A stretch of DNA of 42,256 nt. Origin: Clostridiales bacterium. Lineage in GTDB: Bacteria; Bacillota; Clostridia; Christensenellales; Aristaeellaceae. Position 1 is the first letter of the stretch. Every line of letters begins with the position of its first letter. The position numbers and the translations under genes were made by a program. Shown here in pieces: positions 9,485 through 34,299 of this stretch. The notes under the pieces were generated by a model, which worked only from the letters and a program-made list of their open reading frames with translations, was not told where the DNA came from and ran no database searches. The DNA is taken from positions 1 to 42,256 of the forward strand of contig SVGW01000022.1 of the NCBI GenBank assembly GCA_015056125.1. The letters run 5' to 3'.

Positions 9485-9562
9485 GAAAGTAGAAAAATTC
9501 TACGTTGCATAGAATGTGATCCACAATGCGGTTATTGTGTTTCGGGAATAGTTTCGTATAAT
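9485..9562 (+). promoter_or_regulatory. Promoter and dyads before the XRE regulator
   Basis: TATAAT (9557-9562) with a weak -35, TTGTGT (9535-9540), 16 bases upstream. Two short dyads precede it: GTAGAA-N3-TTCTAC (about 9489-9503) and CACAAT-N6-ATTGTG (about 9522-9539). The second overlaps the -35 and would suit autoregulation by the XRE protein; that is inference. Confidence 0.5.
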
Positions 9563-9599
9563 GGAGGCAGACGCGTCAAAGAAACGAGGAGGAATCAAA

Positions 9600-10361
9600 A
9601 TGGGCTTTTTAATTGGTGAAAATATTAAGAAAATGCGCCGGGAGCGCAATTTGACCCAGGAAGAAATGGCGGCCCATCTGGGCATTTCTTTTCAGGCAGT
9701 GAGCAAATGGGAGCGGGGCGAAGGATTGCCGGATATTACGCTGCTGCCTGCGCTGGCCCGGTATTTTGGGGTGACGGTGGATGAACTGATGGGCATGAGC
9801 CGCATCCATGAGGAGGAAACATTGAAAAAACTATGCAAGGCCTGGGAGGACAACAGAGCTGCAGGCCGGCATCGGGAGAATGCAGAACTGATGAGGGTGG
9901 CTTTGAAGCAGTTTCCCAATCATGCCCTGTTGCTGGTGCAGCTTTCCGCTTCTCTGGAAAGATTGGCCAAGGCAGCGGAAACGGAGCAGGAAAAAATGGC
10001 CCTTCTCAAGGAATCCATTGCCGTGCAGGAGCAAATTCTTCGCTACGGAGAGGATAGCGAAGTAAGAGGCGCTACCCTGTATAATATCTGCTTTTCTTAC
10101 TGGAAAGCAGGGGAAAAGAAAAAGGCCCTGGAGCAGGCCAGAAAGCTTCCCAATCTCTACAAGGCCCGGGAAAATGCGCTGGTTGATTTTCTGGAAGGAG
10201 AAGAAAAAAAGGCAATTGCCCGGGTAGCCCTGGCCCCCCTTGCCTGGTCCATGGAAAAGCATCTCTCGGTTCTGGCGGAAACGGAGCATGAAAAGAAGCT
10301 GGCCGACAAGGCCATCGCAACTCTGCAGGAATTCATAAAGGAAATGGAAAAAAATAAATAA
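9600..10361 (+). CDS. XRE-family transcriptional regulator with helical C-terminal domain
   Basis: The 253-residue protein begins with a Cro/CI-type helix-turn-helix (about residues 6-60: NLTQEEMAAHLGIS, then QAVSKWERGEGLPD). The remaining two thirds is rich in Ala, Glu, Lys and Leu and looks like a tetratricopeptide-type helical repeat, probably for ligand or partner sensing. ATG 9600 has GAGGAGG seven bases upstream; an earlier in-frame ATG at 9561 overlaps the -10 box and is rejected. It is transcribed alone and divergently from uvrA. Its HTH is closely similar to those of the two XRE-OPRT fusions in this window (shared pattern LPDITLLP...VTVDELMG), so all three use one DNA-binding module with different C-termini. 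Target unknown. Confidence 0.85.
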   Translation: MGFLIGENIKKMRRERNLTQEEMAAHLGISFQAVSKWERGEGLPDITLLPALARYFGVTVDELMGMSRIHEEETLKKLCKAWEDNRAAGRHRENAELMRVALKQFPNHALLLVQLSASLERLAKAAETEQEKMALLKESIAVQEQILRYGEDSEVRGATLYNICFSYWKAGEKKKALEQARKLPNLYKARENALVDFLEGEEKKAIARVALAPLAWSMEKHLSVLAETEHEKKLADKAIATLQEFIKEMEKNK

Positions 10362-10424: not shown

Positions 10425-11333
10425 TCAGTAAAGCATGCCACTGTAAGCTGATTTTAGTTCCTGATATACATTTTTTTGCATATCCTGTGCTTGTTGTTTT
10501 ACGAGTTGTTTATATGCGGAGATGGAAGGATAAAAGTTTTCTGCCTCCAGGTGTTTGTAAAGCACATTTCTTGAGGAACTGATAATTGCTCCCAAGCCAT
10601 CACTTCGAAAAAACGGAGGAATATCTTTTGCTTTGCCGCCCTGCGCCCCGTAGCCCGGGACAAGGAAAAAATTATGCTTCATAATTTCGCGAAGGGCTTT
10701 TGCTTTTTCGGGGAACGTTGCGCCAACTACGGCTCCAACGGAGGAATAGCCGTGTTCTCCCATGGATTTTTGCCCCATCATGTTTACGAGGAGTGCTAAC
10801 CAATCCACAATCTTTTCCCCATGTGGATTTATTGCTTCAGAAATTTCCACAGAGCTGGGATTGGATGTTTTCACTAACACAAATACCCCTTTTCCGTCTT
10901 GAATCGCTGTATCGATAAAGGGCTGAATACTGTCCGTGCCAAGAAATGGGGAGATGGTCAGGAAATCTGCATTGATGGGGCCTTCCTTCGCCAAATGGGC
11001 ATAGGCGTAAGCTTTGGCCGTATTGCCGATATCGTTTCTTTTGCTGTCATCGATCACGATTAATCCTTTCTCATGGGCATACTTGATAATCTTTTGATGA
11101 ATACGAATACCTTCTGCACCGTAGACTTCGAAAAAGGCCATTTGCGGTTTGATTGCGGGAACGATATCTGCCACTGCATCGATCACATCCAGTGACCAAT
11201 GCAGGATACTGGCATGCGCCGGAAGGTTTGGCGCTTTATAACATGCGGGAATTTTACCCCATTCAGGATCAATTCCCACAATACAGGGATTTTTCTTGTA
11301 GCGAATCTGCTCAATCAGTTGATCAATTACCAT
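10425..11333 (-). CDS. pyrF: Orotidine 5'-phosphate decarboxylase (type 2)
   Basis: PyrF converts OMP to UMP, the last step of de novo pyrimidine synthesis. At 302 residues this is the longer PyrF subfamily 2. The catalytic Lys/Asp segment is VIDDSKRNDIGNT. Other conserved segments are IVGIDPEWGKIP, FLTISPFLGTDSIQPF, VLVKTSNPSS, AVVGATFPEKA, VPGYGAQGG and the phosphate-binding IISSSRNVLY. All expected active-site residues appear intact. GGAGGAAACG precedes ATG 11333, which overlaps the end of the upstream XRE-OPRT gene by 11 bases, so the two are translationally linked. The two-gene unit is more AT-rich than its neighbours, which may mean horizontal acquisition. No other pyr biosynthetic gene is in the window. 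Confidence 0.95.
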   Translation of the reverse strand: MVIDQLIEQIRYKKNPCIVGIDPEWGKIPACYKAPNLPAHASILHWSLDVIDAVADIVPAIKPQMAFFEVYGAEGIRIHQKIIKYAHEKGLIVIDDSKRNDIGNTAKAYAYAHLAKEGPINADFLTISPFLGTDSIQPFIDTAIQDGKGVFVLVKTSNPSSVEISEAINPHGEKIVDWLALLVNMMGQKSMGEHGYSSVGAVVGATFPEKAKALREIMKHNFFLVPGYGAQGGKAKDIPPFFRSDGLGAIISSSRNVLYKHLEAENFYPSISAYKQLVKQQAQDMQKNVYQELKSAYSGMLY

Positions 11334-12165
11334 ATTCGTTTCCTCCGTATCTTTCTTTGTATTGCTTCATGGTGTCCAAATATTCTCTGCTGCCCACCAG
11401 CCCTTTTTCCATGGCATGAATAATATCGTCCACAGATACGATAGTGTGTATTTTGACACCATATGTTTTTTCCAATTCATGCCGTGCAGACAGCAGGAGT
11501 CCATCCCCTTTTTCCATTCTATCCACAGAAACGATGATATCAGAAATGCATTGAGCAGTATGATCCTGCAAAGCGTGCAGGGTGGCTTTGAGCGTGCTGC
11601 CGGATGTAAGCGTATCTTTTATTAAAGTCACTCGATCACCTGTTTTGAAGTGCTTGTCTGCATGATGATCGATACGATATTGGATATCGATGCCGTATCG
11701 GTTGTATAGAACGGTGCTTGTGGCAATCATGATGGGAATTTCGTGACGCGTGTTTCCAAGCAATAAATTGGATTCCACATTATTTTCGCGTATGCATTCT
11801 GCATAAAATTCGCCGAGCTTTGTAATTTGGCTGGCGGATTGATAATTTCCGATATTGATATAATAGGGAGATAGGCGGCCGCTCTGCAACCGAAATTTTC
11901 CAAATTGAAGTGCGCCATTATCAGCCATGAAGCGAATGAATCGTTCTTTATAATTCAATGCATCCAAGCGGTAATTAAACAGTTCATCCATCGTAATGCC
12001 AAAGTACCGGGCGATCATCGGCAAAAGTGAAATATCCGGAACAGAAAGATGATTTTCCCATTTGCTTACGGATTGAGAGGAAATGGAAAGAACCTCTGCC
12101 AGCTGAGCCTGTGTTATATTCTTGTTTTTTCGTAAAGCGTGAATTTTATCACCGATCAATTGCAT
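11323..12165 (-). CDS. XRE helix-turn-helix / orotate phosphoribosyltransferase-like fusion, next to pyrF
   Basis: Of 280 residues, about 6-60 form a Cro/CI-type HTH (NITQAQLAEVLSIS, QSVSKWE). From about residue 71 the protein follows bacterial PyrE to its end, with FGKFRLQSGRLSPYYIN at 88-104. Compared with the enterobacterial enzyme as I remember it, key positions are changed: Lys26 is Gln94, Lys73 is His141, the first PRPP-motif Asp is Lys183 (IKDTLTSGST), and the flexible loop (163-176) is shorter without the Arg-Lys...Lys-Asp-His pattern. Catalysis is therefore doubtful, and a ligand-sensing regulator, analogous to PurR but with an XRE HTH, is the favoured reading. ATG 12165 has AAAGGAG seven to eight bases upstream; ATG 12183 precedes that site and is rejected. 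Alternatively it may be a true bifunctional PyrE. Confidence 0.85.
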   Translation of the reverse strand: MQLIGDKIHALRKNKNITQAQLAEVLSISSQSVSKWENHLSVPDISLLPMIARYFGITMDELFNYRLDALNYKERFIRFMADNGALQFGKFRLQSGRLSPYYINIGNYQSASQITKLGEFYAECIRENNVESNLLLGNTRHEIPIMIATSTVLYNRYGIDIQYRIDHHADKHFKTGDRVTLIKDTLTSGSTLKATLHALQDHTAQCISDIIVSVDRMEKGDGLLLSARHELEKTYGVKIHTIVSVDDIIHAMEKGLVGSREYLDTMKQYKERYGGNEYGN

Positions 12166-12180
12166 CCTATCGCTCCTTTC

Positions 12181-12209
12181 CATATTAACAATAAAGGATC
12201 AATTGCTCT
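12181..12209 (-). promoter_or_regulatory. Probable promoter of the XRE-OPRT/pyrF operon
   Basis: On the minus strand TAGACA is followed 17 bases later by TATTGT, about 20 bases before the ribosome binding site. A dyad CAACCA-N-TGGTTG lies further upstream (about 12239-12251). Boxes are only moderately close to consensus and the positions are approximate. Confidence 0.4.
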
Positions 12210-12274
12210 TTGTCTATACATTGCAGAGTGAAATGAAGCCAACCATTGGTTGAAAAGATGGGATGAACAAATAA

Positions 12275-12302
12275 ACGCCAGACGAAAAATACAGTCTGGC
12301 GT
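12275..12302 (-). terminator. Terminator of the esterase-Nudix operon
   Basis: On the minus strand ACGCCAGAC and GTCTGGCGT form a perfect 9-bp stem with a 10-base loop, followed by TTATTTG. It lies just after the Nudix stop codon at 12312. Confidence 0.8.
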
Positions 12303-12311
12303 TTTCAGTGG

Positions 12312-33510: not shown

Positions 33511-34299
33511 ATGGAAAACATGGGGAGTATCATCAGAAACTTTCGCAAGGCCCGGGGATGTACCCAGGATGAAATGGCCCAATATCTGAATGTAACCTAT
33601 CAGGCAGTATCCAAGTGGGAAAACGGCGCGGCGCTGCCGGATGTATCCCTGATTCCATCCATTGCCGCTTTTTTGCGGGTGACTACGGATGAGCTCTTTG
33701 GCTACACTCTGCATGTGATGACCAATAAGGAAGCGCTAATCTCTATGATGGTGCGAAACCGCATTCTTTGCCGGGATACACGAAAAGAAACAGAGGGAAA
33801 TCTTTTCCGATACTATATCAATTCAGAAAATTTTACGACCAATGCGCAGCTTTACAAGCTGGGAGAAGTGTTTGCCGATCGCATCCGGGAAGAACATTTT
33901 CAGTTTGATGCCTTGGCCGGGCTGGCATATCACGGCATTGCCCTGGCAGCGGCTACGGCTGTGTCCCTTTACTATAAATACGGAATCAGCGTGCCCTTTT
34001 TCTGCGATCGCAGGACGCCGGACAAAAGGGGAAGGATGATTTGCGGCTATACGCCCAAAAACGGAGAAAGGATTTTGCTGATCGATGATACCTTGAGCAC
34101 GGGTAAAACCATGGTGGAGCGCATCGAACGGCTGAAAGAACAGGCGGATGTGGAAATTGAGGGGGCGCTGGTGATTCTCAATGAAGCGCAAAAGGATGGC
34201 ATGCGCATGATCAACGAAACTTATGGCGCCAAAGTGTGCTCTCTGATTACGGATGAGGATATTCAGATGGCGATTTTGGATAAGATCATTGTTTTGTAA
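33511..34299 (+). CDS. XRE helix-turn-helix / orotate phosphoribosyltransferase-like fusion, second paralogue
   Basis: The 262-residue protein has a Cro/CI-type HTH at about 8-60 (CTQDEMAQYLNVTYQAVSKWEN) and an OPRT-like C-terminal domain from about 73. The PRPP motif is intact (ILLIDDTLSTGKT, 188-200). The N-terminal catalytic segment equivalent to KSGRKSPYF is degraded (TEGNLFRYY, 94-102), His141 replaces Lys73, and the flexible loop reads RRTPDKRG (167-174) without the normal Lys/His pair. It probably binds PRPP or a nucleotide but does not catalyse. GGGAGG precedes ATG 33511. It is divergent from operon B and its 3' end is 15 bases from the convergent operon A, placing it as candidate regulator of one or both. 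Confidence 0.82.
   Translation: MENMGSIIRNFRKARGCTQDEMAQYLNVTYQAVSKWENGAALPDVSLIPSIAAFLRVTTDELFGYTLHVMTNKEALISMMVRNRILCRDTRKETEGNLFRYYINSENFTTNAQLYKLGEVFADRIREEHFQFDALAGLAYHGIALAAATAVSLYYKYGISVPFFCDRRTPDKRGRMICGYTPKNGERILLIDDTLSTGKTMVERIERLKEQADVEIEGALVILNEAQKDGMRMINETYGAKVCSLITDEDIQMAILDKIIVL

Follow-up and report, generated by a model that had tools for sequence, protein, structure and literature searches.

Background

Phosphoribosyltransferase (PRTase) folds serve regulators as well as enzymes. In PurR, a winged-helix N-terminal domain precedes a PRTase of the purine type. GfcR, a transcriptional regulator of haloarchaea, contains an OPRT-like domain; it is archaeal, carries a different N-terminal domain from the proteins described here, and controls sugar catabolism. 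PyrR, a PRTase-fold regulator of pyrimidine genes in the pyr operon, has UPRT activity, acts on RNA and has kept its active site.

Here, we discuss two XRE-OPRT fusion genes in the window, that is, the whole stretch of 42,256 nucleotides analyzed from a Clostridiales genome (G000). One of them, type A, overlaps a pyrF gene and is, we are fairly confident, a retired enzyme within a self-regulating unit. PurR of Bacillus subtilis joins a DNA-binding domain to an inactive PRTase fold, binds substrate-like nucleotides and controls its own pathway (PMC8789054); type A would resemble it in these respects. Type A differs from PurR in its XRE N-terminus (HTH_3) and OPRT-family PRTase, in being paired with pyrF within a seemingly mobile unit of two genes, and in the loss of most PRPP contacts. 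No PurR model appeared among the 15 Pfam families or the best 25 of 38 NCBIfam families matched by the fusion. As for the GfcR models (NCBIfam NF045507 and NF002620), the NF045507 cut-off of 300 was not reached by either fusion type; of 30 type A members, this model matched 8, at E 3.4e-6 or weaker, and type B scored 28.2 bits. The PyrR model NF003549 scored 15.3 bits, far under its cut-off of 138. We judge that type A belongs with PRTase-fold regulators such as PurR; by the domain models compared, it is neither PurR nor GfcR itself. Among the titles listed in searches of open-access literature, there was no description of an XRE-OPRT or OMP-responsive regulator, and nothing on GfcR combined with phosphoribosyltransferase.

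The fusion gene and its partner pyrF

The type A gene lies on the reverse strand (11323..12165; 280 aa). Its start at 12165 is supported by a Shine-Dalgarno sequence, GGAG (12173..12176, reverse strand), and a longer ORF begins at 12183. The initial annotation had proposed an XRE helix-turn-helix (HTH) fused to an OPRT-like domain in a gene overlapping pyrF, and this was confirmed. The N-terminal domain (11980..12144, reverse strand) is a Cro/C1-type HTH (Pfam HTH_3, E 1.7e-12; 47.6 bits vs. a cut-off of 23) with the recognition helix region SSQSVSKWE, in which S29, Q31, V33, S34, K35, W36, and E37 were invariant (30/30). It is followed by an OPRT-fold domain without the catalytic flexible loop (11341..11952, reverse strand), and the overlap with pyrF is 11 bp. 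Structure prediction gave an intact OPRT fold, with structure matches that included the UMP synthases 3qw4 and 2wns. The PyrE model TIGR00336 scored 89.9 bits, below its curated cut-off of 106.8, which among the relatives was exceeded only by the fusion of locus L059 (107.7).

The adjoining pyrF (10425..11333, reverse strand) encodes an OMP decarboxylase (OMPDC) of the TIGR02127 type (250.5 bits vs. a cut-off of 110.6), and its NCBIfam matches were OMP decarboxylase models only. The DxKxxDI motif was present in this PyrF and in all 28 PyrF rows adjoining fusions. Another contig of the genome, C3, carries a pyrF-pyrE-pyrB operon followed by a gene that is presumably pyrI. The intact pyrE that was to be sought elsewhere in the genome was found in this operon, with the usual motifs and a score (151 bits) over the cut-off. 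Since the C3 operon has its own pyrF, of another subfamily (TIGR01740, 207 bits), the window pyrF is the second OMP decarboxylase gene of the genome. All 31 genomes reached via fusion loci had a pyrE in addition to the fusion, in 30 of them over the cut-off; in the remaining one (G170) it was apparently split between contig ends. Two OMP decarboxylases were found in 28 of 32 genomes, including that of the window and counting contig-edge fragments, the exceptions being G168, G169, G173, and G180.

Residues of the OPRT pocket

We tabulated pocket residues of 32 fusion OPRT domains against those of 49 lone OPRTs; the alignment (A1) and the site table exclude L069, whose fusion is split into two frames, and L070, which a contig end cuts. 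The active-site mapping suggested in the initial annotation was carried through in this alignment, and the catalytic loop was absent in 32/32 fusions. K103, H105, and E107 were deleted throughout, and R99 and K100 were kept in none. K73 was kept in 3 of 32 and was Arg in 19. In the PRPP motif, 29 fusions had Thr, Lys or Arg in place of the first acidic residue, and the K26 position held Lys in 15 and Gln in 12. Other positions hardly varied: G28 (32/32), R29 (31/32), and P32 (32/32); D125 (32/32), T128 (31/32), and G130 (32/32) of the PRPP motif; and D155, R156, and E158 (each 32/32), of which R156 has a role in orotate binding. Type A is like canonical PyrE in its fold, orotate loop, R156 and 5'-phosphate loop, and unlike it in lacking the flexible catalytic loop, in having mostly lost K73 and the first acidic residue, and in the added XRE domain. 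Among the 49 lone OPRTs, one outlier (L026, G099:C30:1132-1752) is an OPRT-like protein without XRE whose loop is also shortened and whose motifs are altered.

In nine pairs, dN/dS over the OPRT domain was 0.03-0.18 (dS above 1 in four of them), indicating purifying selection, and a pseudogene was rejected on this ground, with the same limit on dS; an active OPRT was rejected on the ground of the loop deletion in 32/32. We infer that OPRT activity has been lost in the type A fusion. Both the absent loop and the purifying selection support the retired enzyme envisaged in the initial annotation. A different reading is that the fusion still makes OMP slowly. OPRT and OMPDC would then be a salvage pair under regulation, in which the XRE domain would serve as the switch of a trigger enzyme. 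The intact fold of the model and a pyrF with its catalytic motif directly downstream would fit such a pair. In OPRT, however, flexible loop 99-109 and K103 handle PRPP and PPi, K103 is essential, and its acetylation alone lowers k_cat 150-300 fold (PMC10087573), whereas here the whole loop is gone in 32/32 and the host genomes have another pyrE (31/31, one apparently split by contig ends). We therefore regard a salvage pair as highly improbable.

By these residue patterns, type A has lost its catalytic loop together with most of the pocket's pyrophosphate side, and has retained the orotate and 5'-phosphate side (R156, P32; D125, G130). This pattern of loss and retention favors orotate or OMP as the ligand, which we would put at about an even chance. 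The initial annotation had named PRPP, orotate or OMP; orotate or OMP would fit better, and PRPP, with the greater part of its pyrophosphate contacts gone, would fit worst of the three. As a caveat, the acidic residue lost from the start of the PRPP motif contacts ribose (PMC5430920), and its loss would make both OMP and PRPP bind less well. Arg at K73 is a mild change with which phosphate could still be held.

The same regulator might instead respond to PRPP, or to another phosphoribosyl compound, as does Bacillus PurR, an enzymatically inactive regulator with a PRT fold to which PRPP and ppGpp bind (PMC8789054). Retention of D125, T128, and G130 and the frequent Arg at K73 (19/32) are consistent with this, but R99, K100, K103, and H105 are gone in 32/32 and the first acidic residue in 29/32, and it is the orotate side that was kept. 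We consider PRPP sensing by type A unlikely, with perhaps one chance among several in its favor.

Distribution, neighborhood and co-inheritance

A pattern-based scan of 84,980 species genomes returned 37 loci, 31 of them with a fusion; the fusion count leaves out L071, a lone OPRT, and L072-L076, which matched in the HTH alone. The search for further XRE-OPRT fusions and their neighbors that the initial annotation had called for thus yielded 31 loci besides that of the window, with pyrF directly downstream in 28. These fusions are 51-72% identical to that of the window and carry the labels Lachnospiraceae, Oscillospiraceae, Clostridia and, in one case, Bacillales; most are from metagenome bins. 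Two further copies (G582 and G715) also have pyrF, so that, with the window's, it lies directly downstream in 31 of 34 fusion copies. It is absent beside the fusions of L059 and L063, and L070 stops at a contig edge. Copies in G673 and G699 were not counted as new, being identical in sequence to L040 and L057, and neither was that in G708, whose contig is as long as that of L046 and whose pyrF identity equals that of L046. The pyrF start lies -23 to +4 bases from the fusion stop in 27/28, and 72 after it in L061. A search of 391 genomes drawn from the class (E 1e-35) found a full-length match in the window's genome only; in the 69 others with a match, only the OPRT domain was covered, with at most six candidates scored per genome.

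No neighbor other than pyrF was widely recurrent, every other cluster occurring in at most 5 of the 32 regions compared; as the clusters were built from the longest ORFs that do not overlap, they can miss real genes, as they did the L046 fusion and the L063 pyrB. A pyrimidine operon context was rejected, as pyrB lies beside the fusion only in L063 and the canonical pyrF-pyrE-pyrB operon of the window's genome occupies a different contig. The L063 fusion (G173), without an adjoining pyrF, has a broken orotate loop, ERGSISPY in place of SGRxSPY; the L059 fusion, also without pyrF, retains the SGR loop. In the window, an XRE regulator with weak TPR matches (9561-10361, forward strand) is convergent to the pyrF unit. 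Similar proteins are encoded near L046, L051, L053, L058, L059, and L061, of which the common HTH may be the sole cause.

Distances between fusions were strongly correlated with those between the partner pyrF genes (r = 0.91, 29 pairs; permutation maximum 0.26). The correlation with distances between host pyrE genes was r = 0.26 (22 genomes with a usable pyrE row), a value that wrong binning could have lowered, given that most genomes are metagenome bins and that G174 has two pyrE matches over the cut-off. In the 19 genomes with all three genes, the values were 0.94 for fusion-pyrF and 0.23 for fusion-host pyrE. For example, L050 and L052 share 91% identity in the fusion OPRT domain and 41% in the host pyrE. 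The partner PyrFs also group apart from seven housekeeping TIGR02127-like PyrFs (99/97). Judging from these distances, fusion and pyrF seem to move between bacteria as one unit.

Searches for a carrier were negative within their scope. Viral contigs gave no match to a single-protein query and, with the family alignment, four loci, none over the full fusion: one (L247) matched the HTH part only, and the remaining three matched within the OPRT part or over its boundary. In protein searches, none of the best 10 of 28 matching plasmid records covered 80% of the query, and no full fusion occurred among the best 10 of 18 matching phage records. Among the matches listed, the sole phage record above 80% coverage (MT835471, 82%) encodes a lone OPRT with its loop, and the genes of this contig read as bacterial.

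An HTH gene overlapping an enzyme gene, in varied neighborhoods and with signs of horizontal spread, recalls toxin-antitoxin-like or defense modules, and the fusion HTH resembles those of antitoxins. The enzyme here, however, is a housekeeping OMPDC with its motif intact, PyrF had no PADLOC match at E 0.01, and the fusion matched through its HTH only; there is very little to recommend a horizontally moving module of this kind. The close spacing and co-inheritance of the two genes would also fit a pseudo-OPRT that is no sensor but binds the co-encoded PyrF as a protein partner, whose occupancy by OMP or UMP would tune the DNA-binding domain. UMP synthases (OPRT-OMPDC fusions) likewise couple an OPRT fold with OMPDC and are among the structure matches (3qw4, 2wns), and L063, without pyrF beside it, is the locus with the broken SGR loop. 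The unit differs from UMP synthase in being two genes, with an OPRT that has no catalytic loop and an XRE domain in front. A scaffold, however, would not need the conserved pocket residues, and L059 has no pyrF and yet an intact SGR loop. We hold such a role of the pseudo-OPRT as PyrF partner to be rather improbable.

The control region

Upstream of the type A gene lies a candidate operator, the perfect inverted repeat CAACCATTGGTTG (12240..12252, unstranded), also written CAACCAATGGTTG. We propose a -35 box read by eye, TAGACA (12211..12216, reverse strand), and a -10 box, TATTGT (12188..12193, reverse strand), the latter 46 bp from the palindrome. Further upstream, a hairpin (12274..12304, reverse strand; fold -17.3 kcal/mol, z -5.26), which is likely the terminator of the upstream NUDIX gene, sets the fusion-pyrF unit apart from that gene.

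A single CAACCNNNGGTTG-like site in the window is unsurprising by shuffling (one-mismatch expectation 1.28), and the weight therefore rests on conservation of the palindrome. The box occurs with 9 or 10 of 10 matches in 14/31 upstream regions (dinucleotide shuffles: mean 0.11, maximum 2), and a TATAAT-like box follows its GTTG half at a distance of 44-47 bp in 28/31 (mononucleotide shuffles, 44-48 bp: mean 1.9, maximum 6); kinship among the upstream sequences inflates both counts. In a second subclade (L050-L058, L061-L068), the box is weak (4-8 of 10 matches, except L061 with 9) and the left half of the palindrome degenerate. Exceptions to the spacing are L065 and L067, where the script took another GTTG, and L070, where TATAAT occurs at 31 and, by eye, again at 46. 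The distance from box to start codon varies from 83 to 159, or to 196 if the doubtful box of L062 is included.

The box is not private to the fusion. The same 13-mer is present elsewhere in the window's genome (contig C16), and an XRE gene lies within 260 bp of 10 of 31 distinct box sites, in 4 of these 10 the fusion itself; L170 adds one more by eye. Of the boxes collected, L163-L171 were picked by hand, and L137-L162 were at most the first two matches per genome. CAACCNNNGGTTG-like boxes occur upstream of other XRE regulators at L163, L164, L165, L167, and L170. As such boxes precede XRE genes with similar recognition helices, the box is supported as a target of this HTH class, and it is possibly a shared operator of SKWE-helix XRE proteins in Clostridia. 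The box-promoter spacing did not extend to other XRE genes in general: of 7 such boxes, 2 had a -10 with 5 or 6 of 6 matches 44-48 bp away, vs. 2/22 control strand-sites. A regulon including the C3 pyrF-pyrE-pyrB operon was also rejected, an exact-pattern search finding no box on C3. In the open-access literature searched, the palindrome returned one unrelated paper only, and the main text of PMC12565409 contains neither CAAC nor GTTG.

From its conservation we infer that the palindrome may be the operator of the type A fusion. Control of its own operon, as the initial annotation had claimed, is supported, short of proof, by the conservation of the palindrome and of its distance to a promoter-like box. 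Repressors are common among XRE proteins, but a box centered near -65 would suit an activator.

A second fusion in the window

The type B fusion (33511..34299, forward strand) is a solo gene with a different pattern of residue loss. It is 35% identical to type A and has no adjoining pyrF. Its structure model is weaker (pLDDT 73.6), still OPRT-like, and types A and B form one group each in the OPRT tree (SH-aLRT 99, quick method). Relatives occur in G021, G589, and G622 (two copies), making 4 of 250 family genomes with that of the window, and also in G154. The G154 copy (L172, G154:C25:167987-168523) is a solo type B in a genome that also has a type A unit, as in the window's genome, and the two copies of G622, a genome of the same family, stand in tandem (L205 and L238, G622:C140:40385-42050).

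In the 5 tabulated type B proteins, G69, A71, Y72, R99, D125, and G130 were kept in all, K73 was His in all, and the first acidic residue was Asp in 4; K103, H105, and T128 were lost in all, R156 was kept in 2, and the SGRxSPY loop was broken. In type B, it is thus mainly the orotate side of the pocket that has gone, with parts of the PRPP side retained. By this pattern it may sense PRPP, but the loss of T128 speaks against it. Besides HTH models, type B (33511-34296) had weak PADLOC matches to PRTase_III-A models (best E 5.1e-5), which probably reflect the shared PRTase fold.

Proposed function

On balance, we think it probable that type A and pyrF form a mobile self-regulating unit, in which a spare OMP decarboxylase is under the control of a pseudo-OPRT that responds to orotate or OMP. 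Type A would be a one-component transcription regulator, with an XRE DNA-binding domain and an OPRT without catalysis. The dead OPRT pocket would probably bind orotate or orotidine 5'-monophosphate (OMP), and binding would alter the seat of the fusion on the palindrome upstream of its own promoter, so that the ligand would set the expression level of the fusion and the overlapping pyrF. The pyrF product would be a spare OMP decarboxylase added to the housekeeping one, perhaps draining OMP when the housekeeping PyrF falls behind, and both genes would travel between Clostridia as a self-contained unit.

A bolder version, which we put forward as speculative and on present odds improbable, is that the mobile unit, sensing OMP or orotate, supplies a second OMPDC under conditions that block or overwhelm the housekeeping one; natural nucleotide-analogue OMPDC inhibitors or an influx of orotate in the gut would be examples. 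The sister type B kept the complementary, PRPP-like part of the pocket, so that in this version an OMP/orotate sensor and a PRPP sensor would both descend from a single XRE-OPRT ancestor.

If the proposed function is true, type A would be a bacterial regulator that responds to mid-pathway compounds of pyrimidine synthesis (orotate or OMP) and is built from the enzyme of the same step. It would represent a clear example of an enzyme that became a sensor, in two lineages that each lost a different half of one active site, and would explain the two OMP decarboxylases in these Clostridia.
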